The translations under genes were made by a program, and so were the position numbers. A stretch of 36,866 nucleotides of DNA from Gammaproteobacteria bacterium (GTDB lineage Bacteria; Pseudomonadota; Gammaproteobacteria; SG8-11): the NCBI GenBank assembly GCA_030610155.1, contig JAUWSG010000008.1, positions 1 to 36,866 of the forward strand. The letters run 5' to 3'. The notes beneath the pieces are model-generated. The model worked only from the letters and a program-made list of their open reading frames with translations. It did no database searches and had not been told where the DNA came from. The first letter of the stretch is position 1, and every line of letters begins with the position of its first letter. This document shows positions 1,238 to 36,400 of the stretch, piece by piece.

Positions 1238-2101
1238 CTATACTTCAATTTCTTTGGCAAATCCCGGTGTTGTGTTGCGATGAAATTCGATACCGGCATT
1301 GAATCCAAGCCAGTATTTCGGCGCAAAAACGGTGTCCCTGTTTTGCATTAAATAAGACCCCCACCAACTAAAGCTGCTTGGGCTCAAAATGGCATTTTGA
1401 CATTTTGTCATAATAGCGAAATCAGTGCCGAAATGTGTGTTAAAGGAGATTAATTTATTTTTAATAAAGGAGAATTCTTTTTCAACAAATTCTGGGTCAT
1501 CACTCAGAAAAATGAAAAAGCAGTTTTGTTTGTTGTTAATGAAATAGTTAATCTGTTTTTTATAATAACTCGTCGGTAATAATATACTTTTGCCAAAAAT
1601 TTTGAGATTCCTGTAATCACCTCTTCGGATGTGGACAAATACCTTTTGAGCATCTTCAGGGCATTGCTTTAAAATTTCGCTGGCTGCATCCAGATATTTC
1701 TTTTTTATTTTTAATTCTTTTGTTAATGCCTCGTCAAAAAAATCCTCGCTTTGAAAATAGCCCAGCTTTACAAACGTTATTGAGCTTATCAAACCTCTGG
1801 TGTAGCGATAATCAGTTGTCTCCTTGTTTGGGTCGCCTGAAGCCACGTCATGTAATACCTGGATAGCGTTTATAAGTCTTATGCTGCTCAATGCCCTCAA
1901 TATTCGCTTGCCTATATTGATCAGCGTGTTTATAAATTTTGTTCTTTTTTCCAGGTTTATAATGTCCGTGATCTCAAAATCTTCCTGCAAATCTTCAAAG
2001 CCTGAGACAATTAATTTTTCATTATTTTTTTGAATTGACTTAAGGAACATATACTGAAAAATCTGATTACCTAATTGACCTTTGGCTAAAAAAAGTATCA
2101 C
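1238..2101 (-). CDS. alpha-1,2-fucosyltransferase-like glycosyltransferase (GT11)
   Basis: The 287-residue product has the GT11 hallmarks: an N-terminal GQLGNQIFQY (residues 8-17), the GDP-sugar-binding motif HIRRGDY (157-163), and a C-terminal SSFSWWGSYL (242-251). This family transfers fucose from GDP-fucose to galactose-containing acceptors in O-antigens and capsules; the exact donor and acceptor here are inferred from the family only. The frame opens with GTG at 2101, because the glycine-rich motif follows directly and no better upstream start exists. A GGAG lies about 10 nt upstream. It probably shares a transcript with the methyltransferase gene ending at 2139, 37 nt upstream. Length is normal for the family. 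Confidence 0.88.
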   Translation of the reverse strand: MILFLAKGQLGNQIFQYMFLKSIQKNNEKLIVSGFEDLQEDFEITDIINLEKRTKFINTLINIGKRILRALSSIRLINAIQVLHDVASGDPNKETTDYRYTRGLISSITFVKLGYFQSEDFFDEALTKELKIKKKYLDAASEILKQCPEDAQKVFVHIRRGDYRNLKIFGKSILLPTSYYKKQINYFINNKQNCFFIFLSDDPEFVEKEFSFIKNKLISFNTHFGTDFAIMTKCQNAILSPSSFSWWGSYLMQNRDTVFAPKYWLGFNAGIEFHRNTTPGFAKEIEV

Positions 2102-2138
2102 CAGGAAAGTTCTCCAATGAAAGATGGCTTATTGAGGA

Positions 2139-2807
2139 TTATAATTTACCATGAAAAAGACCTTTTATTGCCAATCGAATACCTTTTGAAATGCTTCCTT
2201 TTTTGTTCTCATGATACTCTTTCCATTTTTGCGTGATTTCTTTTTGAATGAATATTTTGAACTCATCCGATATTGATTCTGGTACAAGATATATAACATC
2301 TTCGAATATGGTTAAGTCAATGCCCTGTGGCAGGGCATTAATTATCTCTTTTAAGGATGGCCAATTATAATGTTTATGAGGTTCCGGGGGAGGCGCGAGA
2401 AACAGTCTGGCATCATCAATCAATATCGCAAAATTTTTCTGATGTGAAAAAATGATCTCCAATTCCTTTATTAACGGGCACTCATCGTTTTCTCCATAGG
2501 TCAAGCCGCCACTCCAGTGTGCATCGAGCCAGAACAACAGGTTGTCGTTTTCAGCCAATATTTTTTCCAGGTGTTCTCTGGTGTCACCTTTTAATAAGCT
2601 AATGTTTTGTCTGGCGTTGATGTTTTTCCTGGCAATTTCATATATTTCATCTGATTTTTCAATTGTATAAACCTTGTCAAAGAAGTCGCTCATTAAAAGA
2701 GCTGTTTCGCCTATATATGTGCCACCTTCCACAAAGGTATCAAGCCCCATTTTATTTTTTAAGAAACGAACATGGTTTTCCGGGGCGCCCATATTTACTA
2801 TGCCCAT
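2139..2807 (-). CDS. class I SAM-dependent methyltransferase-like protein
   Basis: The 222-residue product has a recognisable Rossmann SAM-binding start, FVEGGTYIGETALLMS (about residues 25-40), then an acidic strand end VYTIEKSDE. A distinctive middle segment follows, LFWLDAHWSGG, with a downstream acidic motif ILIDDARLF. These match small methyltransferase-like proteins often found in polysaccharide clusters; the substrate is unknown. ATG at 2807 is supported by an AGGAG about 9 nt upstream. It is the first gene of a leftward unit followed by the GT11 gene. Its promoter should lie in the 450-bp divergent spacer to the right. It could methylate a sugar of the surface glycan, but that is inference from context. 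Confidence 0.7.
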   Translation of the reverse strand: MGIVNMGAPENHVRFLKNKMGLDTFVEGGTYIGETALLMSDFFDKVYTIEKSDEIYEIARKNINARQNISLLKGDTREHLEKILAENDNLLFWLDAHWSGGLTYGENDECPLIKELEIIFSHQKNFAILIDDARLFLAPPPEPHKHYNWPSLKEIINALPQGIDLTIFEDVIYLVPESISDEFKIFIQKEITQKWKEYHENKKGSISKGIRLAIKGLFHGKL

Positions 2808-3257
2808 TACCTAATCTCCTATATTACTGTAGTGTCCCGTGTGTTTTTAAAAACTATGACGCATGTCATTACAGGTGCGTCCCAAAATTTTTCAGGATAG
2901 CGTTTATTCAAAATTTCCGATATATCAGGTTTTCAATAACATTATTTTAGTGGAACCGAATTCAGAATGTATTTGTGACCATAATGTCATTGTACTTTAA
3001 TATCCACCAGATTTGCTCGAAAATAATGTTGCTAGCCAGGTTATTAGACACAGTCGGTCAGGTTTATTTATATGTTTGCCATGTTTAAAAAGTCAGTGTG
3101 GTAATATGGATCAATTCCGGTGTGTTGCGAAATCAGATTTATGGGTGCTTTCCAGACTGGTTAAAAGATAATCATATTGTTTATTGGAAACTGTTATGTT
3201 AGTTGACAGCCAGGCGCCTTAACAAATCATCGATTTTGTTTAGTTAGAGGAAACAGA
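2808..3257. promoter_or_regulatory. 450-bp divergent intergenic region
   Basis: This AT-rich spacer separates a leftward gene (start 2807) from a rightward one (start 3258) and should carry promoters for both. I saw no convincing ORF. The rightward gene has a good ribosome site (GAGGAAAC just before its ATG). I looked for a JUMPstart/ops element (GGCGGTAG) typical of RfaH-controlled glycan operons and did not find one. No clear consensus sigma-70 pair can be assigned with confidence. Confidence 0.4.
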
Positions 3258-3929
3258 ATGAGAATATTCAATCGATTTGCCAGGAAAATGGGATCCTGGT
3301 TTAAAAAAGATCCTGATCGTTTTCTTGAAGAACTCAGGGGCGTTATTCATGTCGGTGCCAATACAGGTCAGGAACGAGATCTCTACAAACACTACAATCT
3401 GGATGTGATCTGGGTGGAACCTATACCTGAGGTATATGAGACATTAAAGAAAAACCTGGAAGCTTATGATCGTCAGAAATCATTTCAATATCTTATTACT
3501 GATAAGGAAAATGAAAAATATGATTTTAATGTTGCAGATAATGACGGAGCGTCTTCGTCTATTTTTGATTTTAAATATCATAAGGATATCTGGCCCGGGG
3601 TGGGTATTCAACGTACTATTTCACTTGAAAGTATTACGTTGCCCGCGTTTTTAAAAAAAGAAAATATAAATATCGACAAATATGATGCACTTATAATGGA
3701 CACGCAAGGATCTGAACTGCTGGTACTTCAGGGGGCAGAGGAAATGCTTGGTCATTTCAGATATATAAAAACAGAGGTTTCAGATTTTGAGTCGTACGAA
3801 GGTTGTTGCCAGGTAGACGATATTCAAAAGTATCTTGCCAGCCAGGGATTCAGAGAGCACGCTCGAAACTTGTTTGCGACGCGTAGGAGTGGTAATTATT
3901 ATGATATCTGGTACAGGAAGGTAGTTTGA
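3258..3929 (+). CDS. FkbM family methyltransferase
   Basis: The 223-residue product has the FkbM-type SAM fold: motif I GVIHVGANTGQERDLY (about residues 28-43), an acidic strand end VEPIPEVYETL, and the family's characteristic DTQGSELLVLQGAEEML (about 147-163). FkbM proteins O-methylate sugars or other hydroxyls, and bacterial copies are common in glycan and glycolipid loci. ATG at 3258 is preceded by GAGGAAAC at good spacing. It is followed, about 100 nt later, by another putative sugar methyltransferase in the same direction, so the two may be co-transcribed. Substrate is not determinable from sequence. Confidence 0.85.
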   Translation: MRIFNRFARKMGSWFKKDPDRFLEELRGVIHVGANTGQERDLYKHYNLDVIWVEPIPEVYETLKKNLEAYDRQKSFQYLITDKENEKYDFNVADNDGASSSIFDFKYHKDIWPGVGIQRTISLESITLPAFLKKENINIDKYDALIMDTQGSELLVLQGAEEMLGHFRYIKTEVSDFESYEGCCQVDDIQKYLASQGFREHARNLFATRRSGNYYDIWYRKVV

Positions 3930-4026
3930 CTGTGTATTCTGGGAAGATTTTAAATCTTACGGGAAAAGAAAGACATGTTGCTTTATATAAGAAGTTAAGA
4001 ATCATATTGAAATAAAAGGATAAAGA

Positions 4027-4848
4027 ATGAGAAATCCATTTACTAAAATTTTTCAAAAAATATATTGCATGTCTGTTCCTAGACGTAATTCTACCAGCTT
4101 GTCAGACAATCAGTCCTATCCGCAGGTTTGTATCAATGCCAGCAGCGATTATAGATTTTTCAATAATTTCAGAAGAAATCCCATCTACAATAAAATATTG
4201 GAGCATGCGTCGGAAGAGCAAGGCAAGCAATATCTACAATTGATATCCAAGGACACAGATATATTAGGCGCGATAAATAACTTTAAATCAAATGATGATT
4301 ATGGCAACCCAAGAATGTATGTGTATCCTGATGTCGGGGAAATTTCACCTTCTACTCTTCGATATATCAAGGTGCTAACCGATCTTAAAAAATACTTTCA
4401 CCCATTGGATAATTTGAACATTTGTGAAATAGGTATTGGATACGGTGGGCAGTGCCGCGTAATCAACTCTTATTATAAGCCTGCCACATATTGCCTGGTT
4501 GATATACAGCCAGCTCTTTCTTTAGCTCAAAGATTTTTGGATAATTACATTGTTAATTCAGTCTTAACTTATAATACGATGAATGAATTAAATCAGAGAG
4601 ATTATGATTTAGTGATAAGCAATTATGCTTTTACAGAACTTCCTCGCACGATACAAAATGTTTATTTAAATAAGGTAATATTAAACTCAAAAAGAGGTTA
4701 TATAACTTATAACGAAATTACACCAAAAGAGTACAATTCTTATAATTCCGATGAATTGGTTGAAATGATTCCTGGTGCCAGAATGCTAAAAGAAGAACCT
4801 CTCTCTCATCCAAAGAATTGTCTAATAGTATGGGGCACAGATGCCTGA
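4027..4848 (+). CDS. putative sugar O-methyltransferase
   Basis: This 273-residue product has a central methyltransferase motif I, CEIGIGYGGQCRVI, followed by YCLVDIQPAL (acidic end of strand 2) and YDLVISNYAFTELPR in the motif IV region. It ends with a segment GYITYNEI and short strands. This arrangement resembles the putative sugar O-methyltransferase family seen in O-antigen and exopolysaccharide clusters. An AAAGGATAAAGA just before the ATG can serve as ribosome site. The coding sequence is noticeably AT-rich compared with yajQ, rnm and the dsr genes, as often seen in horizontally shuffled glycan genes. It converges with the next gene (stop to stop, 27 nt apart) with no clear terminator hairpin between them. 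Confidence 0.72.
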   Translation: MRNPFTKIFQKIYCMSVPRRNSTSLSDNQSYPQVCINASSDYRFFNNFRRNPIYNKILEHASEEQGKQYLQLISKDTDILGAINNFKSNDDYGNPRMYVYPDVGEISPSTLRYIKVLTDLKKYFHPLDNLNICEIGIGYGGQCRVINSYYKPATYCLVDIQPALSLAQRFLDNYIVNSVLTYNTMNELNQRDYDLVISNYAFTELPRTIQNVYLNKVILNSKRGYITYNEITPKEYNSYNSDELVEMIPGARMLKEEPLSHPKNCLIVWGTDA

Positions 4849-4875
4849 TAATTGTGCCATCTGGCAATGATCATC

Positions 4876-5583
4876 TCATGATTGCGCGACATAAATCGGA
4901 TTTTCTAATATTTTAACCGCCGCCTGTTGTCCCGTTACTGAATAAGCGATGTATTCATATTTGATATTGTGTTGTTCTACAAATTCCTTGAACCCTCTGA
5001 ATTCATGGTCCTGCCAGTTCGGGTAATTGTAATAGTCATCGAATAAAATGATTGCCCCGGGCTTTATATGAGTTCCGGTGTATTCAAAAACTGTTTTGGT
5101 GGATGAGTATAAGTCACAATCAACATGCATAAAGGCAATGTCGTTTCGGTTGGACTCCAAAAAAGGCGGCAAGGTGTCATCAAACAGTCCGATATGGAGT
5201 TTTACATTATCGGGTACTTTAGGCAGTTTTCCACGGCGACTAAAAGTACCGGCAATATTGCCATTCCAGGACTCCGGAATGCCTTCAAAAGAATCAAAGC
5301 CATGGACAATCTTGTTTACGTTTTCAGCGATCCAGCGTATAGAGCGTCCACGGGCCACACCCAACTCCATAAACAGGCCCTGTTCCTTGACTTGAGAAAC
5401 AGCAAATAAAACCAGGCGTTGATGATCCTGGAAGTATACTGCATCCTTCATGTGGTTATTGATATAGTCCAGCGATTCTTTTTTTGCTTGTAATTGCATA
5501 TCCAGCAGCAGGTTTTTTGAATAAAGCTTTAATACAAAACGCCTGAATAAATATTCTGATAAAGTGCGACGAAATAAGGCCAT
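4876..5583 (-). CDS. TylF/MycF-like O-methyltransferase
   Basis: The 235-residue product matches the TylF/macrocin O-methyltransferase family. It has motif I MELGVARGRSIRWIAE (about residues 72-87), GFDSFEGIPESW after it, and a metal-site-like HVDCDLYSS followed by GAIILFDDYYNYPNW. In TylF and MycF these acidic residues bind the Mg2+ needed for sugar-hydroxyl methylation. Many environmental homologues sit in LPS or capsule clusters, as here. ATG at 5583 has CAGGA about 7 nt upstream. It faces away from the outer-membrane gene on the right across a 311-bp spacer. The exact sugar is unknown. Confidence 0.85.
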   Translation of the reverse strand: MALFRRTLSEYLFRRFVLKLYSKNLLLDMQLQAKKESLDYINNHMKDAVYFQDHQRLVLFAVSQVKEQGLFMELGVARGRSIRWIAENVNKIVHGFDSFEGIPESWNGNIAGTFSRRGKLPKVPDNVKLHIGLFDDTLPPFLESNRNDIAFMHVDCDLYSSTKTVFEYTGTHIKPGAIILFDDYYNYPNWQDHEFRGFKEFVEQHNIKYEYIAYSVTGQQAAVKILENPIYVAQS

Positions 5584-6910: not shown

Positions 6911-7393
6911 ATGCCATCATTTGATATTGTGTCTGAAGTTGATATGCATGAATTGACAAACGCGATTGATCAGGCAAACCGGGAGGTAGGAAACCGGTTT
7001 GATTTTAAAGGGGCAAATGCCAAATATGAGCAAAATGAAGCTGAAATTACATTGTCAGCCGAAGCGGAATTTCAGCTAAAGCAAATGCTCGATATTTTAA
7101 ATTTGAAGCTGACCAAGCGGGAAATAGATATCGCGTGTTTAAAAGTTGAAGAACCAGAAGTAACAGGGAAAGTGGCGCATCAAAAGGTGATTTTGAGACA
7201 GGGTATTGATACACCATTGGCCAGGAAAATAGTGAAGATGATAAAAGATTCTAAAACAAAAGTGCAGGCGGCTATCCAGGGTGAAAAAGTACGCGTTACT
7301 GGAAAAAAACGGGATGACCTGCAAGGTGTCATGTCACTGTTGCGTGGTGCGGATCTGGAATTACCTTTGCAATTTGATAATTTCCGGGACTAA
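6911..7393 (+). CDS. yajQ: YajQ family cyclic-di-GMP/nucleotide-binding protein
   Basis: The 160-residue product begins with the highly conserved PSFDIVSEVDMHEL and continues with NRFDFKG, the signature of the YajQ/DUF520 family. Length is normal. In Xanthomonas a YajQ homologue binds cyclic di-GMP and acts as a transcriptional cofactor; in other bacteria the role is less clear. ATG at 6911 follows an AGGGAGAG ribosome site. The stop overlaps the start of the next gene by one base (TAATG), so translation of the two is probably coupled. A GGDEF-EAL protein lies some 6.5 kb away, but no direct link can be drawn. Confidence 0.93.
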   Translation: MPSFDIVSEVDMHELTNAIDQANREVGNRFDFKGANAKYEQNEAEITLSAEAEFQLKQMLDILNLKLTKREIDIACLKVEEPEVTGKVAHQKVILRQGIDTPLARKIVKMIKDSKTKVQAAIQGEKVRVTGKKRDDLQGVMSLLRGADLELPLQFDNFRD

Positions 7394-8440: not shown

Positions 8441-11400
8441 CTAAACTCTTTCAATTTCCTTTTGTTGAAAGAGATGCTCCAGCCACATATTTGACATTTT
8501 TTCCTGTAAGTTATTTTGTGACAATCGATCTTCCCAGTTATCAAGATCAACAATATGCAGGGGCTGGTCTTGCCAGGAACAGCCAAATACGGCCTTGGTA
8601 CGTTTGCCGGTTTGTGGGTCAATTTGCCATTGCAGGCACTGTGAACAAACACCTTTTAACATACACTGCATTTGAGTGCTGATGGATGCCGTTACTCTCA
8701 CGCCGACTTTCGGCATTAAGTCTTTTAATTTATTTTCATAAGCATCTCTGAACGTGCGCACCAGTTTCTGGTTGCCAACAATAATAATGCGATCAATATC
8801 CCGTGCGTGGATAAATTTTTCGTCCGTTGATGTAATATTATCGTCCGCAAAGTTATTAATCACATCAAGCAACTCACCGCTGCCCGTCATGTCCTGTGTG
8901 CGGCGTGATTTAATTGCCTGGCCTTCTTTTACATTCCAGATGATATGGCTTGCCGCCTTTTCCAGCTCATCCTGGCAATATAATTCCCCGTCATGATCAA
9001 GATGCATGATAAAAGAAACATTATTTCCAGCCTTCAGCATGGCAGGCCCCACTCCCAGAATATGAGGGATGCATAGCGAATCGCCAATGATCAGAATGTT
9101 TTCCCTGTCTTCAGGTATGTGCATTCTGACACCTGAGGGGCCCATCAGCGAAATTGGGTCACCTTTTTTGAAGGTGGTGCATATTTTCGAACTTGTACCC
9201 TTATCCATGACCATCAACGAAATAAGCCCTTTTTCCTTGTCGATAAACGAGCCGGTCAGCGCCATTGTTTCTGTTTGTAGTTTGGTGTTTTCAATAACTG
9301 GTGCGAATGTTTCGTAGCTTTGCAACCGAAAGAACTGGCCGGGATGCGCACGTTTAGCGGCCATAGGCGCATGGATTTTAATTTCTATTGTGGTGGGAGC
9401 ATGGCGGATAACATCATCAATCGTTGTTTTAAAAAGTGAAGTTATGTTGTGGCTAAATGACTGGTATTCCTCTTCGTTACCTTGCTGGCTTGCACGATCA
9501 CCGAATGATGACACTATTTGTGGATAGACCCGCATACCGGATGCCACTGCTTTTACGACATTGCCATTAAAAACAGGATGAGTATCACCCAGGAACGTGA
9601 CGTGGTGTTGATTATCATCGTATGAGGTAAAGGCGCCAAAATTTTCTTTCTTAATATGTTCTGTCACAGGCGTTTGCACAAGTTGACCGTCGATATGGCG
9701 GTACGTTTGATAATGCCCGTTTTCTTTATTAAAACTGTCACGATGCTCAAATGAATAGGCGATATTGGGTCGGGCACCTGTGGCGGCAAAAATGGCGCGT
9801 GAGGGTAATGTCATGCACTTATCAGTATTGTGCCAGTTCCCGTCAGCATCTTTTTCGCGCACCTGGCAGACCAGAAATTCAGAATGGCCGTACTTGTCCA
9901 CTTTTACTTCAACAGGTTCGATACCTTGCGCATAATAAATACCTTCTTCCAGCGCTTTAGTGACTTCTTCATGATTGCTTCTGTACGCAGGAGATTCATT
10001 CATGTTCCTTCTGTATGCCACCGTGACGCCTCCCCAGGATTGAATCAGGGGGATAAAATTAGCCTGTTCGTTTTCACTGGATGCGCGGTCTCGTTCACGC
10101 CTGACCGCTTTTCCATGTTCCAGTTGTTCTTCCAGTATAAGACGGGAAACTTCATCGAGTTGTTGATAAATGGCATCTTTGCCGATGCTTTGTTCCAGTT
10201 GTTCATAACGGGAAAGTAATTTTTCGACTTGTTGAATATAATAGGCCTGTACTTCTGTGGCAGTATCAATGCCGGTCAAACCACCGCCGATGACGACGGC
10301 GGGCAGTCTTACCTGTAAATTGGCCAGGCTGGATGCCTTGGCTGCACCGGTGAGCTGTAAAGCCATCAGGAAATCATTCGCCTGGCGCATACCCGGCGCC
10401 AGGCTTCCCGGTACAGGCAGTGCCTGGGGTAATCCGGCACCGACCGCGATGGCAATATGATCAAAGCCCATCTCCCATGCGTCTTCTGTCGTCACTGTGC
10501 CGCCGAAACGCACGGCACCAAAAACCTGAAAACAGGGTCGACGCATGAGTGTAAGGTAAATCAGCTTCAGGAAGTTCTTGTCCCAGCGCACAGTAATACC
10601 GTATTCAGTTACGCCACCAAACCCCGCCATGATACGTTCATCAAGCTGTTCTTCAATATCACGGTAATTTTCAATGGGTGTATCGATAAGGGATTGAGGC
10701 AGCGGCTCGATTTTTAATCCGTCTGTCCCAACGACAGCAAAACCTTCCATCAACAGGTGGTGGGCCAGTGTAAAGCCCGAGGGGCCCATGCCTGTGATTA
10801 GCACCTTCAGACCATTATATGGCTTTGGTAGCCATTGTTTCTGACGTAACGGGTTCCAACGGGTTAACAAATCATATATTTCCACACCCCAGGGGAGTGC
10901 CAGAACATCGGTCAGGCAACGCGTTTCAATCTCTGGAATATTGACCGGTTCCTGCTTTTGATAAATACAACCTTTCATGCAGTCATTACAGATTCGATGC
11001 CCGGTTGACGGACACATAGGGTTATCAATCATAATGGTTGCCAGGGCCGCAATGGTATGACCATCGCGTTTTAAGCTGTGCATTTCAGAAATCTTTTCGC
11101 CTAGCGGGCAGCCGGTTAATGTGACGTTGAGCGGGTTCTTTTTATAACCTTTGTCTGGCTCTCCCTTTTTTTCGTGAAATCCTTTTGAGCAATAGTCACC
11201 TTCATTTTTATGGCAGAAGACACAATAATTGATTTCATTCTGCACTTGCCGCGCGTTCATGCGCTTGTCTGTAAGTTTGAATCCGTCGCGTGGCCGGTTA
11301 TTTACGGGTATGCCTTGCAAGCGATTAAATTTGTCATCAGGCCGGATTTCGGTCGGGACCAGTGCTTGATAATCCAGTCCCCCGGGTAGTTTGAAGCAGA

Positions 11401-11965
11401 CCCAGTTTTTGACTGTGGACTGACCTTCGGTTGTGGTCATGGCGCGTATACACCAGCGCGTTAACAATTCAATCTGGTCTTTATGATTCTCCTGGTCTGA
11501 CAGTAATTGTTCGCCCAGCATGGACACTGCAAGCTCCTGGTCATGTGGATCAAGTGCGTGCTTTATTAATGTTTTTTCCAGCCAGCTATTAAGCTCGGAA
11601 AATGTCTCGATATCTTCCTTCTTCAATAATCGACGACGTGCACGACGCAGCACGAAGGTTTTCTTGAACGCGACGACAGGATTATGGGACAGGGTTTTTT
11701 CTTTTGAGTCGCTGATTTTATCGCTGATTTCAAATAATTCGGCGATGAAGGTTTCAAGTACGGGTGCACAGGCCAGAATCAATTGACTGGTTTGCAGGGA
11801 GTCGCCTGCAAAAGAATTATTTCGATAGTCGATTAATTTTTTATGTAGTTCAGTGTCTAACTGTTCAAGTTGCAGGAGAAATTCCGTGTCCAGTTTTTGC
11901 AGACCCTGCGGCGAGAAAAGGTCTTTATAAGTAAACCCTGATAGACCAAGTTTTTTATTTTGCAT
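8441..11965 (-). CDS. large iron-sulfur flavoprotein: GltD/NfnB-like half fused to PyrK/NfnA-like half
   Basis: This product is about 1174 residues long. Residues 1-240 are a helical region without a recognised fold. Next come cysteine clusters C248/C251/C259/C286 and C318/C326/C329/C333, like the iron-sulfur N-terminus of GltD-type enzymes. Two dinucleotide motifs follow, GMGPSG (392-397) and GGGLTG (560-565), with an ATGARPN loop at about 727-733. From about residue 845 there is a ferredoxin-reductase-like module with MGPSG (941-945). It ends in C1101-x5-C1107-x2-C1110-x18-C1129, resembling the [2Fe-2S] site of PyrK and NfnA. It should move electrons between NAD(P)H and an iron-sulfur or quinone partner in the cytoplasm; the partner is unknown. 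ATG at 11965 is preferred over an upstream TTG at 11977. It is a single-gene unit ending at an inverted repeat. Confidence 0.8.
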   Translation of the reverse strand: MQNKKLGLSGFTYKDLFSPQGLQKLDTEFLLQLEQLDTELHKKLIDYRNNSFAGDSLQTSQLILACAPVLETFIAELFEISDKISDSKEKTLSHNPVVAFKKTFVLRRARRRLLKKEDIETFSELNSWLEKTLIKHALDPHDQELAVSMLGEQLLSDQENHKDQIELLTRWCIRAMTTTEGQSTVKNWVCFKLPGGLDYQALVPTEIRPDDKFNRLQGIPVNNRPRDGFKLTDKRMNARQVQNEINYCVFCHKNEGDYCSKGFHEKKGEPDKGYKKNPLNVTLTGCPLGEKISEMHSLKRDGHTIAALATIMIDNPMCPSTGHRICNDCMKGCIYQKQEPVNIPEIETRCLTDVLALPWGVEIYDLLTRWNPLRQKQWLPKPYNGLKVLITGMGPSGFTLAHHLLMEGFAVVGTDGLKIEPLPQSLIDTPIENYRDIEEQLDERIMAGFGGVTEYGITVRWDKNFLKLIYLTLMRRPCFQVFGAVRFGGTVTTEDAWEMGFDHIAIAVGAGLPQALPVPGSLAPGMRQANDFLMALQLTGAAKASSLANLQVRLPAVVIGGGLTGIDTATEVQAYYIQQVEKLLSRYEQLEQSIGKDAIYQQLDEVSRLILEEQLEHGKAVRRERDRASSENEQANFIPLIQSWGGVTVAYRRNMNESPAYRSNHEEVTKALEEGIYYAQGIEPVEVKVDKYGHSEFLVCQVREKDADGNWHNTDKCMTLPSRAIFAATGARPNIAYSFEHRDSFNKENGHYQTYRHIDGQLVQTPVTEHIKKENFGAFTSYDDNQHHVTFLGDTHPVFNGNVVKAVASGMRVYPQIVSSFGDRASQQGNEEEYQSFSHNITSLFKTTIDDVIRHAPTTIEIKIHAPMAAKRAHPGQFFRLQSYETFAPVIENTKLQTETMALTGSFIDKEKGLISLMVMDKGTSSKICTTFKKGDPISLMGPSGVRMHIPEDRENILIIGDSLCIPHILGVGPAMLKAGNNVSFIMHLDHDGELYCQDELEKAASHIIWNVKEGQAIKSRRTQDMTGSGELLDVINNFADDNITSTDEKFIHARDIDRIIIVGNQKLVRTFRDAYENKLKDLMPKVGVRVTASISTQMQCMLKGVCSQCLQWQIDPQTGKRTKAVFGCSWQDQPLHIVDLDNWEDRLSQNNLQEKMSNMWLEHLFQQKEIERV

Positions 11966-11977
11966 CGGTATACTCAA

Positions 11978-26335: not shown

Positions 26336-26647
26336 TCACTCTTTTGGTGTTTTGTGGCTCGGGTCATTGGGGTTGAAATAGATAAACTGATATTCTCCGG
26401 TTTCAATTTCAACATAGTCCAGCACGGTGTCTTCGAGCATTTCGCGGCAAGTTGGCGAAACCAGAAGGTTGATGCCTTCTGATGTGATTTTCACATCCTC
26501 TTCTTTGCTGTTATCAAAACCCATACCGTATTCATATGAGCCATCCGGGTTTATTTTGCCTGAAATACGCAGCGCCATGTCCCCGGTATTTGTTTCTTTA
26601 GCCGAATGCAGGATTTGTTTTGCTGCAGCTGGTGTGACTTTTATCAT
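26336..26647 (-). CDS. dsrR: DsrR, IscA-like accessory protein
   Basis: The 103-residue product has the A-type scaffold (IscA/HesB) fold, with VTPAAAKQILHSA at the start and an YGMGFDN strand. It has only one cysteine (SPTCREML) and lacks the CxC near the C-terminus, so it cannot bind a cluster in the IscA manner. This loss is characteristic of DsrR, which in Allochromatium is needed for post-transcriptional control of dsr and full sulfur oxidation. ATG at 26647 has AGGA about 8 nt upstream. It is the last gene of the dsr operon, 30 nt after dsrN. No dsrS-like gene follows. Confidence 0.87.
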   Translation of the reverse strand: MIKVTPAAAKQILHSAKETNTGDMALRISGKINPDGSYEYGMGFDNSKEEDVKITSEGINLLVSPTCREMLEDTVLDYVEIETGEYQFIYFNPNDPSHKTPKE

Positions 26648-26677
26648 AACTTTGTCCTGATTATTAAATGTAGAAGA

Positions 26678-28051
26678 TTATTTATTTTTTCGTATGAATG
26701 TTACAAATCGATCGGCCCAGTGATTCGATGCCACATCACGTAAATGGGCGAAGCTTGCAAGTAGATTTTTATAAACGATACCATCATATTTGCCATTAAT
26801 TCCATAGCCGCGCAATACTTCATACGCAAATGTTGTATTGTCAGGCACATTTTCCAGACTTGAGTAATGGAACTCATGTGCAGGAATTTCAGTTATATTT
26901 TCTTTGTTGTTGTTCAGATCCCATGGTCCGTTTCCTGTCTCGCGTAGACGTACATAACCCCGGCCCTGTGGTTTTTTATGCATAATGATGTCGCCCGGGA
27001 TCACACCGACCATGGTATGTTCATTATTGTTCCAGTGAATACTTCGAGACAGATACATGAGTCCGCCGCATTCAGCGTAAGTGGGAAGGCCGGACTCAAT
27101 CTTGTTCAGGATATCATTGCGCAATGAGGAGTTATTTTCCAGTTCTGCCATTTGAGTTTCGGGGAAGCCGCCGCCGATAAATAAACCATCAATGTCAGGC
27201 AGTTCAGGGTCTTTTAATGTGTTGATCGGGACAAGATCAGCGCCTGCCTGTTGCAGTGCTTCAAGATCACCCGGGTAATAAAAATTGAAAGCAGCGTCCA
27301 GAGCATAGCCGATTCGGACATCCTTTTTATGACTAACCGCTGTCGTGAGTTTCTTAGTCTCAGGAAAATTTGCTTTGGCCGCAATCGAGATGATCGCATC
27401 CAGATCAACCTGGTCGGCAATGAGGTCTGCGATAGTTTTTATCTGCTTGTCTGCTGCGACGGATTCTTCGCTGGGGATCAAACCAAGGTGACGTTCTGAT
27501 ATTTCCAGGCGTTCATCACGTAGAATCGCACCGAGCACGGGTACGTCTGTATAATGTTCAATGACGGCACGTAATTTTTTTTCGTGACGGCGGCCCCCCA
27601 GTTTATTAAGAATAATGCCGGCTATATTAACGTCCGGGTCAAATGCCTGGTAGCCAAGTATCAACGGGGCAATACCGCGTGTCATGCCGCGGGCATCGAT
27701 GACCAGAATAACGGGTGCATTGATTAATTTACATATCGCAGCATTACTGTTGCTGCCATCAAGATCAAGGCCGTCATAAAGACCTTTATTTCCTTCGATA
27801 ACCGAAATGTCAGCACCCTGGCTGTATTGTGACACGGTATTTATTATTTCCGTATTGGACATGGTATTAAAATCAAGGTTATGACAGGCGTGTCCGGCGG
27901 CACGGCCTAACCACATGGGGTCAATATAATCCGGGCCTTTTTTGAAGGGTTGAACAATGAGTTTGCGTTGCTTTAAGGCCGCACACAAACCCAGTGAAAC
28001 AGTTGTTTTACCAGATGATTTATAGGCGGCGGAAATAAAGAAATGTGGCAT
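26678..28051 (-). CDS. dsrN: DsrN, siroheme amidase (CobB/CbiA family)
   Basis: The 457-residue product has a P-loop AAYKSSGKT (residues 8-16), FKKGPDYIDP and IEGNKGLYDG. A C-terminal glutamine amidotransferase-like domain follows with GGGFPETQM and the catalytic Cys in YAECGGLMYLSRS. The fold is that of cobyrinic acid a,c-diamide synthase. Inside a dsr operon it is DsrN, which makes the amide on siroheme used by DsrAB. It follows the TrpD-like gene by 26 nt and precedes dsrR by 30 nt. Length is normal. Context and sequence agree; a cobalamin role is unlikely because no cobalamin genes are near. Confidence 0.92.
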   Translation of the reverse strand: MPHFFISAAYKSSGKTTVSLGLCAALKQRKLIVQPFKKGPDYIDPMWLGRAAGHACHNLDFNTMSNTEIINTVSQYSQGADISVIEGNKGLYDGLDLDGSNSNAAICKLINAPVILVIDARGMTRGIAPLILGYQAFDPDVNIAGIILNKLGGRRHEKKLRAVIEHYTDVPVLGAILRDERLEISERHLGLIPSEESVAADKQIKTIADLIADQVDLDAIISIAAKANFPETKKLTTAVSHKKDVRIGYALDAAFNFYYPGDLEALQQAGADLVPINTLKDPELPDIDGLFIGGGFPETQMAELENNSSLRNDILNKIESGLPTYAECGGLMYLSRSIHWNNNEHTMVGVIPGDIIMHKKPQGRGYVRLRETGNGPWDLNNNKENITEIPAHEFHYSSLENVPDNTTFAYEVLRGYGINGKYDGIVYKNLLASFAHLRDVASNHWADRFVTFIRKNK

Positions 28052-28077
28052 AGGTTAGACAGCTCGGAGAGGTGGTA

Positions 28078-29079
28078 TTAAGCCGCGTTACTGTATTTAT
28101 CTTTTGATCGATTGTCCCACATTTTTTTCGCCAATGCTTCTGCTTCGTCGATAGTGTCCGCCTTGCCCATCATCTTAAGGGTAATTGCGGCAGTACCCAC
28201 GACGGCAGCTGCGCCATATTCATAATCTATTTCGCCGCGCCATAATGCGATCAGGTTAGCACTATCGAGTGTTTCATCTTTAACATGGCGTTTTTTGAAC
28301 ATCGGTGGCCACTCTTCATTAATCATCTCGCCGTTGTGTACACTTTGTACCAGGCATTTCATGTCCGGGTTGCGCTCAATTTCGCCGCCTTCGCCTTTGA
28401 TGACCGCCATATGGGGCTGGTTTAACAGAACACCGGCTTCCTGATGAGTAGGGTGGTAGCCAGGGTGAAAGATACCTTGCATCATATAAGTCGCATTGTA
28501 GGGGTTGATCATGCGTGAAAGGGTATGTACCGGCGAGCGCAATCCCAGAAAAGACCGGAGTTGAATAATTTGTTGTAATTTTGGACACAAATGCTCGAGA
28601 TCCATGTAGGCAAAATTGTCCTGCTCGATGGCTTTATTAACTTCATCGAACGTCGTGGCCACATTCAGTCCCAGTTCACGCAATACATCATTGGTGTAGA
28701 TTCTTCCTGCTGTATGGCCGCTTGCGCCATGCATGAAGACACGCACACCATTTTCGGCAAATAATAACGCTGTTAAAATAAACCAGGGCAGGTGTCGGCG
28801 TTTGCCGGCATAAGATGACCAGTCCAGGTCAATTGTTACTTTATCAGCAGGTAATTGAATAAAGTCTTTGACTGCGCGTACGAACCCGGCCACTTCCTCG
28901 CCGGTTTCTTCCTTGACGCGCAACAGCATTAGATAGGCGCCTAACTGCTCGGGTGTGACCTCATCATTGAGCACCATGGTGAATGATTCATAAGCTTCAT
29001 CTTCGGTAAATGAACGCGATCCGCTTTTTCCTTTTCCAAGAATGCGAATAAAATGGGCAAACGGGTGTTCCTGATACAT
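28078..29079 (-). CDS. TrpD-like glycosyl transferase family protein (YbiB/TrpD2-like)
   Basis: The 333-residue product has an N-terminal helical part with FTEDEAYESFTMVL and GAYLMLLRVKEETGEEVAGF, which resembles the start of anthranilate phosphoribosyltransferase (TrpD). The family's glycine-rich PRPP loop (GTGGD) is absent: the equivalent region reads DWSSYAGKRRHLPWF. Later it has VFMHGASGHTAGR and YMDLEHLCPKL. It is therefore not a tryptophan-pathway enzyme and may be a TrpD2-like nucleic-acid or phosphoribosyl binder; this is inference. It lies between dsrP (20 nt upstream) and dsrN (26 nt downstream), so it is co-expressed with the dsr genes. Its role in sulfur oxidation is unknown to me. 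Confidence 0.8.
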   Translation of the reverse strand: MYQEHPFAHFIRILGKGKSGSRSFTEDEAYESFTMVLNDEVTPEQLGAYLMLLRVKEETGEEVAGFVRAVKDFIQLPADKVTIDLDWSSYAGKRRHLPWFILTALLFAENGVRVFMHGASGHTAGRIYTNDVLRELGLNVATTFDEVNKAIEQDNFAYMDLEHLCPKLQQIIQLRSFLGLRSPVHTLSRMINPYNATYMMQGIFHPGYHPTHQEAGVLLNQPHMAVIKGEGGEIERNPDMKCLVQSVHNGEMINEEWPPMFKKRHVKDETLDSANLIALWRGEIDYEYGAAAVVGTAAITLKMMGKADTIDEAEALAKKMWDNRSKDKYSNAA

Positions 29080-29099
29080 GGGTCAGGTTCCTCAATATT

Positions 29100-30344
29100 T
29101 TAAGCGGTGGCTTCTGATTCTGCTGTTTCTTCAGTCGCGGGTTTGTAATGAGGATCAACGATAGCGTCATCCAGACTCAGTGGCAGGAAGCGTAGCACCT
29201 TGATTCCGATGGTGACCATAATCAGTGCAATGGCGACGCCGCCTACACCTAAGGCTATTTCCGGCATGCTGGGGCTATAGTGATTGACGACACCATCAAA
29301 AAAGCTGCTGCTGACTTCAAAACCTGGAAACATGTTAAGTGGAAATGCCTGGCCACCAATAATAATGCCATACATTTGCGCCAGGCCACCTGTAATGACA
29401 AGAACACAGCTGATTGTGATCCACAAGGCTGATTCTCTTGTCGCCGGGCTGTAGAGAAGAAATAATGGAATCAGGCTGCCAAGGAGTATTTGTACACCCC
29501 AGAACAAAAAGGTGTAGATACCGCCGTTGAGTAAAATAAACTGCTCGAATCCATGGTGTTCAGTCGCATACAGGTTGGTCAGGTGAAAAATCGCGACGAT
29601 TAATAAGACTGCCGCAACAAATACACCTAGCAGGTTCTTTAATCGAGACAGCACGGCTGTGCCCAGGGGGCGTCCTGTTCCCGCATAACTGCCCATTAAG
29701 ATCAGAATAAAGATCGCCATACCAAACGAAAATGACATAAGAATAAACATCGGTGCCATGATGGCCGCATCATAACTCTGTCGGGCGACCAGGAAGCCAA
29801 AGATCGAACCCGTACCGGTTGTCAGTATCAGGCGCCAGGTAAAGGCGGCAAAACCAACCGCTTTACTGTATTTGTTCATGCGGTGTTCCATCATCATCCA
29901 CAGGTAAACACCGACAATAACCAGAAAGCCGTTATAGAGAAAAATATTCCAGGCAAATATCGATTTAAAATTGTAATTTGTCATGGCGACAATGAGTCGA
30001 TCAGGTCGGCCCAGATCAAGTACCAGTACACTGAGCCCGCCCATCAGTAATGCAATCGCCACCAGGCCCGAGAGTGGGGCAAGGGGTTTGTAGGCCGTTT
30101 TGCCGAACACAGAGGCTATGGAGGCAACGTTCAAGGCGCCTGAGGCCGCGACTATCAGGAACACGGCAAAAACATGTGGCACTCCCCAGACAATCTGGTT
30201 CGTCATACCGGTGACATGGTGGCCGTTGTGTTCCATGTAATAGGTGGCTGCAAGGGCGATCGCGATGATGACAGCAAAAAAGCCCAGCAAAATATAATAA
30301 TTAATGCTGTTGCCTTCAATTTCCCGGTAGTGAATTTTTGCCAT
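29100..30344 (-). CDS. dsrP: DsrP, NrfD-type membrane subunit of DsrMKJOP
   Basis: The 414-residue product has about ten hydrophobic helices and the overall look of NrfD/HybB-type quinone-interacting proteins. It stands in the dsrMK-L-JOP order, immediately after dsrO (4 nt gap). DsrP should exchange electrons with membrane quinone and pass them through DsrO and DsrJ. ATG at 30344 has AAGGA in the end of dsrO as ribosome site. Both ends look complete. A short hydrophilic tail (rich in E, A, T) closes it. Confidence 0.92.
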   Translation of the reverse strand: MAKIHYREIEGNSINYYILLGFFAVIIAIALAATYYMEHNGHHVTGMTNQIVWGVPHVFAVFLIVAASGALNVASIASVFGKTAYKPLAPLSGLVAIALLMGGLSVLVLDLGRPDRLIVAMTNYNFKSIFAWNIFLYNGFLVIVGVYLWMMMEHRMNKYSKAVGFAAFTWRLILTTGTGSIFGFLVARQSYDAAIMAPMFILMSFSFGMAIFILILMGSYAGTGRPLGTAVLSRLKNLLGVFVAAVLLIVAIFHLTNLYATEHHGFEQFILLNGGIYTFLFWGVQILLGSLIPLFLLYSPATRESALWITISCVLVITGGLAQMYGIIIGGQAFPLNMFPGFEVSSSFFDGVVNHYSPSMPEIALGVGGVAIALIMVTIGIKVLRFLPLSLDDAIVDPHYKPATEETAESEATA

Positions 30345-30348
30345 GAAT

Positions 30349-31143
30349 TTAAATTCCTTGATAACGGACGCCAGGATTAAGTTTCAGGTCGCCACGTACT
30401 TGCATACTTGCCTCTTTGCTAATACGGAGTGCAATTTCACTTGATGCGTCTTTTAAATCACCAAATATGAGTGCTTTATGGCCATCTTTTGCACAAGCTT
30501 CAACGCAGGCCGGTGTTTCACCTTTGTCAACGCGATGCACACATAAGGTACAACTTTCCACCGTGCCTTTACCGCGCGGTATCCCTTGCACTTGTCCGGT
30601 CAGTTCTTCGTGGATAAACGAACGTGCCTTGTAAGGGCAGGCCATCATGCAATATCGACAACCAATACAGAGATGTTTATCAACCAGCACAATGCCATCG
30701 GCACGCTTGAAGGATGCGCCGGTCGGGCAAACATCGACACAAGGTGGAAATTCGCAATGTTGACACATCATGGGTAAAGAAACGGTTCGGTTCGTGCTTT
30801 TGTCCCGTAGTTTAACGGTACGGATCCATTGCGCATCGGTTTCAGGCCGATCGAAACCCTGTAATCCATTTTCATCATTGCAGGCTTTGACGCAGGCATC
30901 ACAGCCATTACCGCATTTGCTGGTATCGATGAGTAATCCGTAACGTACGTTACTGCTTACCGCTTCATCAGCTGGGCGTGCCTGTGCAAAATTATTCAGT
31001 ACCAAACCAGAGCCCAGCGCACCTGTTGCGGTCACTGCCGCAAGCTGACCAAGGAATTTACGTCTGTAGTTATTAACATGATCGTTATTAACGTGACCGT
31101 TATCTACTTGATCGTTGTTAGTGTGATCGTCAGTCTGGCTCAT
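30349..31143 (-). CDS. dsrO: DsrO, periplasmic iron-sulfur subunit with Tat signal
   Basis: The 264-residue product has a Tat signal with the RRKFLG motif at residues 27-32, preceded by a 20-residue stretch of pentapeptide repeats. The mature part carries four ferredoxin-type cysteine groups: CGNGCDACVKAC, CQHCEFPPCVDVC, CIGCRYCMMAC and CTLCVHRVDKGETPACVEAC. This is the DsrO/NrfC pattern for 4Fe-4S electron wires, here on the periplasmic face of DsrMKJOP. Its ATG overlaps the dsrJ stop by one base. Its 3' end is 4 nt from dsrP. Confidence 0.93.
   Translation of the reverse strand: MSQTDDHTNNDQVDNGHVNNDHVNNYRRKFLGQLAAVTATGALGSGLVLNNFAQARPADEAVSSNVRYGLLIDTSKCGNGCDACVKACNDENGLQGFDRPETDAQWIRTVKLRDKSTNRTVSLPMMCQHCEFPPCVDVCPTGASFKRADGIVLVDKHLCIGCRYCMMACPYKARSFIHEELTGQVQGIPRGKGTVESCTLCVHRVDKGETPACVEACAKDGHKALIFGDLKDASSEIALRISKEASMQVRGDLKLNPGVRYQGI
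31069..31128. repeat. 15-bp tandem repeat inside dsrO (4 units)
   Basis: Residues 6-25 of DsrO are four five-residue units, DHTNN, DQVDN, GHVNN and DHVNN, encoded by four diverged 15-bp repeats on the minus strand. They lie just ahead of the Tat twin-arginine motif. In-frame slippage would lengthen or shorten this leader without breaking the gene. Confidence 0.88.
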
Positions 31144-31571
31144 TAATGTTTACTCATAGCAGAATCATTTGTCTTGCCATGTCCCCGTTTATCATTACCC
31201 GGTCTGGATGCATGGCATTCGAAGCAATCTATTTTTACAGCAGCAAATGTGTGGCAACTGTTGCAAAAATGCTTTGGATTTTTGAAATCCACAGGCACAT
31301 TGTCGTCATCTTTGACGGCATGGCAGTTGATGCATTCCTTGAAGCTGTGTTTTTTGGTGCGTATACCTCTATGCACGGTTTCATCACGTTGATGAAGAAT
31401 CAGTTCCATATGATTCTTGCGCATGAAATCGGTCTCTTCAACACATTTATCACCTTTGCCTTTAGGAATATCAGGTGTCGGTACACCCGCAAAAGCCGGC
31501 AAACAGAACAGCATTAAACTGAGTAGTGCGGTCCTGATACCTGTAATGTTTGTGATGAAGGTTGATTGCAT
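31143..31571 (-). CDS. dsrJ: DsrJ, triheme periplasmic cytochrome c
   Basis: The 142-residue product has a signal segment (TALLSLMLFCLPAFA, residues 14-28) and three CXXCH heme sites: CINCH, CNSCH and CFECH. A conserved cysteine C43 in GDKCVEETDFMRKNHME corresponds to the Cys that ligates one heme iron in Allochromatium DsrJ. This supports the unusual His/Cys ligation here too. The frame is open for 63 more codons into dsrL, but ATG at 31571 lies 16 nt after the dsrL stop and puts the signal peptide at the N-terminus, so it is the start chosen. It is the periplasmic redox end of DsrMKJOP. Confidence 0.92.
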   Translation of the reverse strand: MQSTFITNITGIRTALLSLMLFCLPAFAGVPTPDIPKGKGDKCVEETDFMRKNHMELILHQRDETVHRGIRTKKHSFKECINCHAVKDDDNVPVDFKNPKHFCNSCHTFAAVKIDCFECHASRPGNDKRGHGKTNDSAMSKH

Positions 31572-31587
31572 AATAGTTGGCCTGATC

Positions 31588-33561
31588 TTATCCACCCAGT
31601 CCCATTTTAATATAACCGGTTGGGCATACATCTGCACAAATATGGCAGCCGATACAACGATTATAGTCGGTGTAAACGTAGCGGCCCATTGTGGACTCTT
31701 CCTTTGGCGTCTTGTGGACCGCATCCTGAGGACAGAAAATGACACAATTATCACATTCAAAACACATACCGCAACTCATGCAGCGTTTGGCCTCGGCAAC
31801 CGTTTCTTCTTCTGATAATCCCGCGACACGTTCTTCAAAATGTCCCAATACCTCATCTGCAGAGGGAACAGTTTCCTGACGCCTGTGACGATCTTCATGT
31901 TCAAAATGGCCAAGGAAAAGCTCATCTGAAGGTACGATCAGTTGATTTGAACGGTCTTCAAAATTATGTATTGCAAACCCTGTTTCAGATGTGCCATGTA
32001 CACCTCGATCAATACCCCGGGTATGTTCATCACCGGCAGGTTGGAAATGCTCGGGCTCCAGGTGAACTTCACGCAGTTTATTAATCAGGTCAAAGTGATG
32101 TACATCCACCTTGGGGCGTTTGCCCAGATCCTGGTGACTGAGATAATGATCGATGCTTTCCACAGCGATTGATGCCTGTCCGATAGCGGTGGTTAACAAG
32201 TGAGGTCGTATAATATCACCGCAAACAAAATAACCGGGTTTGTTGGGAACCTGGAAGTTCTTGTCAGCATCCATCAGGCCTCTGTCATTGGCAAATCCTT
32301 CCATGCCTTCGAAATTCCCTGCCTGACCGATGGCAGAAACGACCAGATCGCATTCTATGTCATATTCAGAGCCTTCAATAACTTCAGCTTTACCGCTTGC
32401 ATAATCAAGCTTGGCCACACGTAGTGCGGTTGCCCGCCCGTCTTTCCCGAGGATGACTTCAACAGGTGTTAATGAACCACGAATATCAACACCTTCGCGG
32501 GTAGCGTCATCAATTTCATGTTGGGCGGCACTCATGTTTTCAATAGGCTGCCGTGACATCAGTAATACGTCTGCACCTTCTCGTGCGGCAATGCCGACGA
32601 CATCATGTGCCGTATGCCCCATGACGATATTTTCAGGACGGTCTTTTTCAGCAATATTTGTGATATGGCCCAATCGTCTGGCAACAGAAGCCACGTCAAT
32701 AGAGGTATCACCGCCACCAATGACAATGACTTTGCCGGCGACTGATTTTAAACGTCCATCGTTAAATGCTTCCAGAAATGCGACACCGGTAATGCAGTTT
32801 GTTGCCTCTGCACCGGGGATAGGAATCGGCCGGCCTGATTGGGCGCCAATTGCAAACAGGACGGCATCGTAATCTTTTTCCAGCTGTTCCATTGTTATAT
32901 CGCTACCCACGCGTGTTTTCATTTTGATTTCCACGCCCATATCAACGATACGGTTGATTTCCCCATCCAGCACATCGCGGGGTGTTCGATAGCCCGGAAT
33001 GCCATAACGCATCATGCCACCCAGTTCTTCGTGCTCATCAAAAACAGTCGCGCCGTAACCTTTCAGTTTTAACTGGTATGCTGCCGCAAGTCCGGCAGGG
33101 CCGCCACCAATGATGGCCACTTTCTTGTCTATAGTGTTGCCTGCGGTAAATGTATATTTTTCTTTTAGTGCATTATCACCGATGAATTGTTCGACCGCAT
33201 TGATACCGACATTGTCTTCAACTTCATTGCGGTTACAACCATCTTCACACGGTGCAGGGCAGACACGGCCCATAATAGAGGGAAACGGGTTTGCGCTGGT
33301 TGAACGACGAAAAGCGTATTCTTGCCAGGTTGAACCTTCTGCCGGTTGTTCAATGCCTCTGACAACGTTGAGCCAACCCCTGATGTCTTCACCTGAAGGA
33401 CAGCTGCTTTGACAGGGTGGTGTTTGATGAACATAGGTGGGGCATTTATATGTAGTATCGGCTTCGAATATTTCATCTTTCCAGGGCAGAGGCTCATGAT
33501 CGCCGTCTGAATATTTTCGAAATGTATGTTCTTTACCTGCTTTATCTGCCGGAGTTGACAT
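31588..33561 (-). CDS. dsrL: DsrL, iron-sulfur flavoprotein NAD(P)H oxidoreductase
   Basis: The 657-residue product is a GltD-like flavoprotein. It has N-terminal cysteine sites (CPTYVHQTPPCQSSCPSG and CPAPCEDGCNRNEV), the FAD motif IIGGGPAGLAAA and a second dinucleotide motif VIGGGDTSIDVA. A C-terminal two-cluster ferredoxin domain follows (CMSCGMCFECDNCVIFC; CIGCHICADVCPTGY). This layout is DsrL, which takes electrons from rDsrAB sulfite production to NAD(P)+ and is required for sulfur oxidation. ATG at 33561 has a perfect AAGGAG 7 nt before the start; a longer frame from 33588 is not needed. It lies between dsrK and dsrJ. Confidence 0.94.
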   Translation of the reverse strand: MSTPADKAGKEHTFRKYSDGDHEPLPWKDEIFEADTTYKCPTYVHQTPPCQSSCPSGEDIRGWLNVVRGIEQPAEGSTWQEYAFRRSTSANPFPSIMGRVCPAPCEDGCNRNEVEDNVGINAVEQFIGDNALKEKYTFTAGNTIDKKVAIIGGGPAGLAAAYQLKLKGYGATVFDEHEELGGMMRYGIPGYRTPRDVLDGEINRIVDMGVEIKMKTRVGSDITMEQLEKDYDAVLFAIGAQSGRPIPIPGAEATNCITGVAFLEAFNDGRLKSVAGKVIVIGGGDTSIDVASVARRLGHITNIAEKDRPENIVMGHTAHDVVGIAAREGADVLLMSRQPIENMSAAQHEIDDATREGVDIRGSLTPVEVILGKDGRATALRVAKLDYASGKAEVIEGSEYDIECDLVVSAIGQAGNFEGMEGFANDRGLMDADKNFQVPNKPGYFVCGDIIRPHLLTTAIGQASIAVESIDHYLSHQDLGKRPKVDVHHFDLINKLREVHLEPEHFQPAGDEHTRGIDRGVHGTSETGFAIHNFEDRSNQLIVPSDELFLGHFEHEDRHRRQETVPSADEVLGHFEERVAGLSEEETVAEAKRCMSCGMCFECDNCVIFCPQDAVHKTPKEESTMGRYVYTDYNRCIGCHICADVCPTGYIKMGLGG

Positions 33562-33660
33562 GTGTGTGCTCCTTTGTACATCAAACAATGAATGTGAAAA
33601 TATTATTAATAAAAATTACTAAAACTTTATCTCCAGGTCGAAACCCGGGCCTTGCATCTA

Positions 33661-35151: not shown

Positions 35152-35164
35152 GTATTGTTTGCCT

Positions 35165-35194
35165 CAAAACTGTTTGTTTCAGAACTGTCTGTTT
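35165..35194. repeat. 15-bp direct duplication upstream of dsrK
   Basis: CAAAACTGTTTGTTT (35165-35179) and CAGAACTGTCTGTTT (35180-35194) match at 13 of 15 positions. They lie in the dsrM-dsrK spacer, just before the dsrK ribosome site on the minus strand. Confidence 0.75.
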
Positions 35195-35214
35195 CAGATT
35201 CATGGTCAATAAAT

Positions 35215-35931: not shown

Positions 35932-35949
35932 GAACAAATCCCGGGTTGG

Positions 35950-35980
35950 CAAACTGGATCATGGATCATGATCCAGTTTG
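35950..35980 (-). other. 14-bp-stem hairpin between dsrC and dsrM
   Basis: Arms CAAACTGGATCATG (35950-35963) and CATGATCCAGTTTG (35967-35980) are perfect reverse complements, with a 3-nt centre. It lies 26 nt beyond the dsrC stop on the transcript. No U-run follows on the minus strand, so it is not a classical intrinsic terminator. It may protect or partly end the dsrC message, which is expected to be more abundant than downstream mRNA. Confidence 0.85.
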
Positions 35981-36006
35981 TCTTACTTCGGTCTGGATAC
36001 GAATTT

Positions 36007-36339: not shown

Positions 36340-36348
36340 AACGCTTTC

Positions 36349-36379
36349 TCCTATCTAAGTTATCTTAAGTTATCTAAGT
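36349..36379. repeat. triplicated 9-10-bp repeat upstream of dsrC
   Basis: TATCTAAGT (36352-36360), TATCTTAAGT (36361-36370) and TATCTAAGT (36371-36379) lie back to back in the dsrH-dsrC spacer. They abut the ribosome site (CTCCT on the plus strand at 36349-36353) and may affect expression of dsrC. Confidence 0.75.
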
Positions 36380-36400
36380 TTTACGTTTAAAAAATATCAA

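Follow-up and report, generated by a model that had tools for sequence, protein, structure and literature searches.

A single-chain Nfn-like flavoprotein family proposed to reduce ferredoxin in bacteria without Fpr

What purpose is served by a flavoprotein of 1178 amino acids (aa) in which counterparts of both subunits of the transhydrogenase NfnAB follow one another in one chain, behind a long N-terminal domain? The question is raised by a gene on the minus strand of contig JAUWSG010000008.1 (GenBank assembly GCA_030610155.1), a 36,866-nucleotide stretch of DNA from a Gammaproteobacteria bacterium that is referred to below as the window. Reading from sequence comparisons, we propose, with a probability of roughly 0.6, that the protein is a single-chain Nfn-like oxidoreductase between reduced nicotinamide adenine dinucleotide phosphate (NADPH) and ferredoxin, with FdxA as its main partner, and that it would replace the ferredoxin reductase Fpr in bacteria that lack Fpr. 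Support for this function comes from the distribution of the family over genomes and from the genes beside it.

Architecture and cofactor sites

Residues are numbered here from a TTG start codon (Table 1); an alternative in-frame ATG lies four codons downstream, and the numbers of an earlier, sequence-only reading of the locus, which started at that ATG, are 4 lower. Full-length homologues measure 1130-1250 aa. The sequence-only reading described a GltD/NfnB-like flavoprotein continued in one chain by a PyrK/NfnA-like one, and this is borne out by both sequence and fold matches. In phmmer searches of the PDB, the middle part of the protein matches 5jca_L (NfnB/GltD type, E 2e-11) and the C-terminal part matches 5jca_S (NfnA/PyrK type, E 6e-8), while a family profile gives E 1e-22 for the GltD/NfnB-type match and 7e-18 for the PyrK/NfnA-type match. 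An AlphaFold model of the whole protein, for which the input was the window's protein plus 80 homologues, has a mean predicted local distance difference test score (pLDDT) of 92.6 and a predicted template modelling score of 0.93. With this model, Foldseek ranks the NfnI large subunit first among PDB entries (template modelling (TM) score 0.80-0.83, normalised to the target), and the NfnI small subunit, 5jca_S, is matched at TM 0.90 with a root-mean-square deviation of 2.3. The segment numbered 845-1130 in the sequence-only reading, for which a match of the NfnA/PyrK type had been sought, accordingly has one in both sequence and fold. The protein thus contains a GltD-like part with flavin adenine dinucleotide (FAD), a site for NADP and two [4Fe-4S] clusters, one of them of the Cys3-Glu type, as well as an FNR-like FAD domain followed by a C-terminal [2Fe-2S] domain of NfnA type.

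All 11 cluster cysteines and E351 are invariant in the 81 homologues over which site conservation was counted; C322 is not. The first [4Fe-4S] site is of the GltD type, with about 22 extra residues ahead of its fourth cysteine, C290, which aligns with the GCP cysteine of NfnB, and the second aligns with the region of the NfnB cluster whose Cys3-Glu ligation is described in PMC8097209. R464 corresponds to the arginine at the bifurcating FAD of NfnB (R201 in Pyrococcus furiosus, R187 in Thermotoga maritima, both numbered by offset). The cysteine set first noted as C1101-x5-C-x2-C-x18-C is real, comprising C1105, C1111, C1114 and C1133 in the present numbering, and the stretch that carries it (MQC-x5-C-x2-C-x18-C) was aligned with MVDGTGMCGAC of NfnA and with the fused Nfn proteins termed Pattern C, discussed below. 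In the NfnA-like module, 41 of the 82 members of the family tree have GGGLG as their dinucleotide motif; in the other 41, the window's protein (IGDSLC) included, the motif is degenerate. The half with GGGLG intact forms one side of a single branch. The insert in the NADP(H) domain consists of two helices that are conserved, family-specific and without a counterpart in NfnB.

The claim that the first 240 or so residues belong to no recognised fold has also stood. Folded alone, the N-terminal 228 residues reach a pLDDT of 93.7 as a bundle of helices, and the N-terminal stretch of about 230 residues matches no PDB sequence and no PDB fold with E below 1. Nor is there a credible Pfam match for the N-terminal domains of 76 members, scattered weak matches of single domains being taken as noise. 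A weak Pfam match of the protein to HEPN_RnaseLS, at E 0.004 and short of the cut-off, was also taken as noise. We limit the claim to the lack of a match in the PDB and do not extend it to a new fold. The family conserves this domain, with a lower sequence identity than in the remainder of the protein.

Table 1 Features of the flavoprotein gene and its product, in window positions
Feature	Residues	Position	Strand	Basis or remark
Whole gene	1-1178	8441..11977	minus	open reading frame of 1178 aa; starts with TTG (11977), an ATG at 11965 being the alternative
N-terminal domain	1-240	11258..11977	minus	about ten helices to residue ~190, then linker
First [4Fe-4S] site	C252, C255, C263, C290	11108..11224	minus	conserved in 81/81
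Second [4Fe-4S] site	C330, C333, C337, probable Glu ligand E351	10925..10990	minus	conserved in 81/81
GltD/NfnB-like FAD and NADP(H) module	386-745	9743..10822	minus	Pfam Pyr_redox_2 6.8e-10; NfnB TM 0.80-0.83
Arginine aligned to N5-bonding NfnB arginine	R464	10586..10588	minus	invariant in 81 rows; column alignment to 5jca_L
Helical insert in NADP(H) domain	~577-647	10037..10249	minus	helices in model; gap between NfnB-matched stretches
PyrK/NfnA-like FAD and [2Fe-2S] module	850-1178	8444..9430	minus	NfnA TM 0.90; profile E 3e-20 to 5jca_S
NAD glycine motif position		9068..9085	minus	GDSLCI here, degenerate
[2Fe-2S] site	C1105-x5-C1111-x2-C1114-x18-C1133	8579..8665	minus	Cys4; conserved in 81/81

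Family name and distribution

The family is already known, by name only. NCBIfam NF005128 (PRK06567) aligns with the protein from end to end, its profile including the N-terminus, yet the score of 621 bits lies below the curated cut-off of 1072, which no sampled relative passes, and on sequence the family is homologous to PRK06567 and not that equivalog. PRK06567 bears the homology-derived name 'putative bifunctional glutamate synthase subunit beta/2-polyprenylphenol hydroxylase', which if taken literally would make the protein a glutamate synthase small subunit joined to a hydroxylase. We give this next to no credence: a GltD-like gene of the usual length (a 471-residue frame, G000:C167) exists separately in the genome, the fold of the C-terminal module is that of NfnA/PyrK, and a literature search for PRK06567 or for its long name found no paper to support what homology had suggested.

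Among the genomes sampled, 53 of 274 from the window's class and 54 of 230 from a second proteobacterial class have homologues, which are also present in methanotrophs, Acidithiobacillus, Acidobacteriota, Nitrospirota, Chlorobiota and others. One of the methanotrophs with the gene is Methylomonas sp. LW13 (L045). One genome (G026) carries two divergent copies (L159 and L160), one in an fdxA operon and one without fdxA nearby. Two genomes of only 1.0-1.2 Mb (G130 and G243) retain shorter or diverged copies, as might be expected if the gene were hard to lose.

Genomes that carry the family tend to lack Fpr, which was searched for as homologues of the Escherichia coli protein. In the window's class, 4 of the 53 carriers have Fpr, compared with 93 of the 221 non-carriers (odds ratio (OR) 0.11, p=4e-7), and the avoidance holds when counted by genus (p=8e-6) or by GTDB family (171 families, p=9e-5). 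The second class shows the same pattern (4 of 54 carriers against 43 of 176 non-carriers; OR 0.25, p=0.006; by genus p=8e-4), and both classes combined give an OR of 0.16 (p=1.7e-7). For pntB, which served as the control, no avoidance is seen (OR 1.8, p=0.09), and on this ground the PntB transhydrogenase was rejected as the function replaced. No Fpr was found in the window's genome, which is 85% complete; the genome does have FdxA, on another contig, and FdxA is present in all seven of the other carriers checked.

Several facts temper this association. Both Fpr and the family gene are missing from 128 of the 274 genomes; other reductases therefore exist, and Fpr may be avoided without being replaced. 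Common descent also inflates such tests, which nevertheless hold up when counted by genus and, for the window's class, by family. Given the many genomes with neither gene and the non-independence of related genomes, we regard the avoidance figures as a strong hint and not as proof.

The sequence-only reading had suggested that the protein could serve reverse-Dsr sulfur oxidation as a second NAD(P)H link, and had asked whether fused forms track with rDsr genomes. The gene does lie about 15 kb from dsr genes within the window. However, over the 274 genomes, 14 of the 53 carriers have dsrA, as do 79 of the 221 non-carriers (OR 0.65, Fisher p=0.26), no tracking is seen, and the family is common in methanotrophs, Acidobacteriota, the second proteobacterial class and other lineages; such a role now appears very improbable. 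Read from translations, the dsr genes form a putative reverse-type run on the minus strand (26336-36703; dsrH/tusB, dsrC, M, K, L, J, O, P, N, R), and the dsrA gene of this genome is on a different contig (G000:C57).

Gene neighbourhood

Over all 80 of the first loci, the only conserved neighbours were lineage-specific housekeeping genes, and the signal of fdxA emerged from the record of plasmid pTcM1 and from wider flanks around the nearest relatives. On pTcM1 of Acidithiobacillus caldus, genes for a GntR regulator, a PRK08275 flavoprotein, a Fer4 dicluster protein and a HEAT protein are followed in a row by fdxA and the family gene. The same operon set occurs in genome G026, with ABC (ATP-binding cassette) transporter genes between fdxA and the family gene. 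The pTcM1 and G026 proteins fall in clades far apart from one another, each among its own relatives, and the family gene has therefore entered this type of operon at least twice. On pMRAD01 of Methylobacterium radiotolerans, an operon of the same type ends in fdxA followed by a gene for a ferredoxin--NADP reductase that is 39% identical to E. coli Fpr and gives a family match as well. Fpr thus keeps company with fdxA in one operon of this type as the family gene does in others, and the two would share a task despite their dissimilarity: Fpr (b3924) has 248 aa, one FAD and no clusters, as against 1178 aa and three cluster sites here, and only the FNR-type core of the C-terminal module is distantly related to it.

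In the clade beside the window's own, fdxA faces grxD (encoding a CGFS glutaredoxin), which is followed in order by the family gene, in several cases the rhodanese gene glpE, and nadA (L130-L133 and L023, with a looser form in L006). This cluster, seen in several gammaproteobacteria, has an iron-sulfur theme. The gene yajQ lies near the L006 locus and likewise in the window (6911-7393).

These neighbourhoods bear on a different reading, in which the protein would be a dedicated NADPH-side reductase for some other enzyme docked via the N-terminal domain, as GltD serves GltB, and ferredoxin would not be the partner. GltD-like modules often serve a single partner enzyme (PMC8097209), the unmatched N-terminal domain is conserved, and outside some lineages no partner gene is conserved alongside. 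Against this, no enzyme gene recurs beside the family gene across clades, whereas fdxA does, and the exchange with fpr in an fdxA operon also argues otherwise; we consider a dedicated reductase rather improbable.

The case for FdxA as partner has weak points of its own in the neighbourhood data. Most copies of the plasmid operon have neither fdxA nor a reductase gene adjacent, the exchange with Fpr rests on three operons, the window's own copy of the gene has no fdxA nearby, and the chromosomal fdxA cases, which all belong to one clade, may be inherited synteny. The operon type seen on pTcM1 is a context independent of those cases.

The plasmid operon is itself widespread. It encodes the PRK08275 FrdA/AprA-like flavoprotein, the Fer4 dicluster protein, the HEAT-repeat protein, an ABC transporter and a GntR or Crp regulator (loci L127, L159 and L165-L175), the PRK08275 flavoprotein is found on 48 plasmid records from many taxa, and fdxA with a reductase gene is an optional add-on. 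Elsewhere in the window, translations of positions 1238-5583 include several methyltransferase-like open reading frames and one that is glycosyltransferase-like, probably a surface polysaccharide locus.

Relation to Nfn and proposed mechanism

Published features of Nfn enzymes (PMC6405883, PMC8097209) are Asp-Cys3 ligation of the [2Fe-2S] cluster, Cys3-Glu ligation of a [4Fe-4S] cluster and, at N5 of the bifurcating FAD, an arginine, and the [2Fe-2S] motif reads DGTGMCGxCRx10CV, with Asp-Cys3 ligands (PMC6405883). The family shares with NfnAB (NfnI; P. furiosus 5jca, T. maritima 4ylf) the FAD/NADP module, two [4Fe-4S] sites including one of the Cys3-Glu type, the NfnA-like FAD/[2Fe-2S] module and the N5 arginine. 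It differs in being one chain, in the order B then A, with the extra N-terminal domain of about 230 aa and the helical insert in the NADP domain; in having a Cys4 [2Fe-2S] site in every member in place of Asp-Cys3, and hence not the Nfn motif; and in the loss of the NAD motif from half of its members. The NAD(H) site on the NfnA module is only weakly conserved in Nfn too.

The order of NfnB and NfnA within one chain is not unique to the family, because the 'Pattern C' fused Nfn, already described and uncharacterised, likewise has its NfnA part at the C-terminus (PMC6405883). For comparison we used members of NCBIfam PRK12779 (L144-L148 and L150), the equation of PRK12779 with Pattern C being our own. 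These proteins, of about 970 aa, are 22-28% identical to the family over the shared modules, have a different N-terminal stretch of about 210 aa in which our N-terminal profile finds nothing, and keep the Asp-type motif MVDATGMCGAC. Membership of Pattern C was rejected on the N-terminus and the [2Fe-2S] motif, and from these differences, together with the low identity, we conclude that the family is a second, separate kind of B-A fusion.

Given this likeness, the protein might be a true electron-bifurcating transhydrogenase of the Nfn type, in which the first FAD would divide the electron pair of NADPH: one electron would go to ferredoxin, and its partner would reach NAD+ by way of the [2Fe-2S] cluster and the second FAD. 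Every cofactor site of Nfn is there, in matching order and fold, the N5 arginine thought to be critical for bifurcation is invariant as R464, and half of the family keeps GGGLG. However, the arginine is also found in non-bifurcating Etf proteins, the [2Fe-2S] ligand set is Cys4, where Nfn owes the +80 mV of its cluster to Asp-Cys3, and the NAD motif is degenerate in the window's half. We hold bifurcation to be an unlikely reading for the family; linked to NAD, it could apply to the members with GGGLG intact, with less likelihood for the window's own copy.

If the protein is instead an NADPH:ferredoxin oxidoreductase, as we prefer to think, NADPH would reduce the FAD of the GltD/NfnB module, and electrons would leave singly via the two [4Fe-4S] clusters (residues 252-351) to the 7Fe/8Fe ferredoxin FdxA. 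The C-terminal FAD/[2Fe-2S] module would form a second electron port, plausibly for NAD(H) in the GGGLG half of the family; in the window's half it would serve a different partner or act as a regulatory sink. The N-terminal helical domain would probably serve docking or oligomerisation. It counts against this scheme that some 1180 residues, with a second flavin module, are more than one would expect of an enzyme that did nothing but reduce ferredoxin.

A bolder version, which we put forward as speculative and doubtful, is that the family is a second, independently built single-chain bifurcating enzyme of the Nfn type that has an N-terminal fold of its own and in which the [2Fe-2S] cluster, with Cys4 ligands, is re-tuned. 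It would provide the main route to low-potential ferredoxin in many aerobic or facultative proteobacteria without Fpr, the window's half feeding the high-potential branch to an acceptor other than NAD+.

Significance

A ferredoxin reductase is a basic need; according to PMC5302815, fprA is essential in Pseudomonas aeruginosa, and a recognisable Fpr is absent from many of the proteobacterial genomes sampled here. In about one in five of the genomes sampled from two classes, the family seems to make good this lack. If so, a family so far named without being studied would supply a step missing from many metabolic reconstructions, and would offer a case of Nfn-type chemistry outside the strict anaerobes in which bifurcation has mostly been studied. 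Its natural variants, with the NAD motif kept or lost and Cys4 in place of Asp-Cys3, would separate what bifurcation needs from what plain ferredoxin reduction needs.

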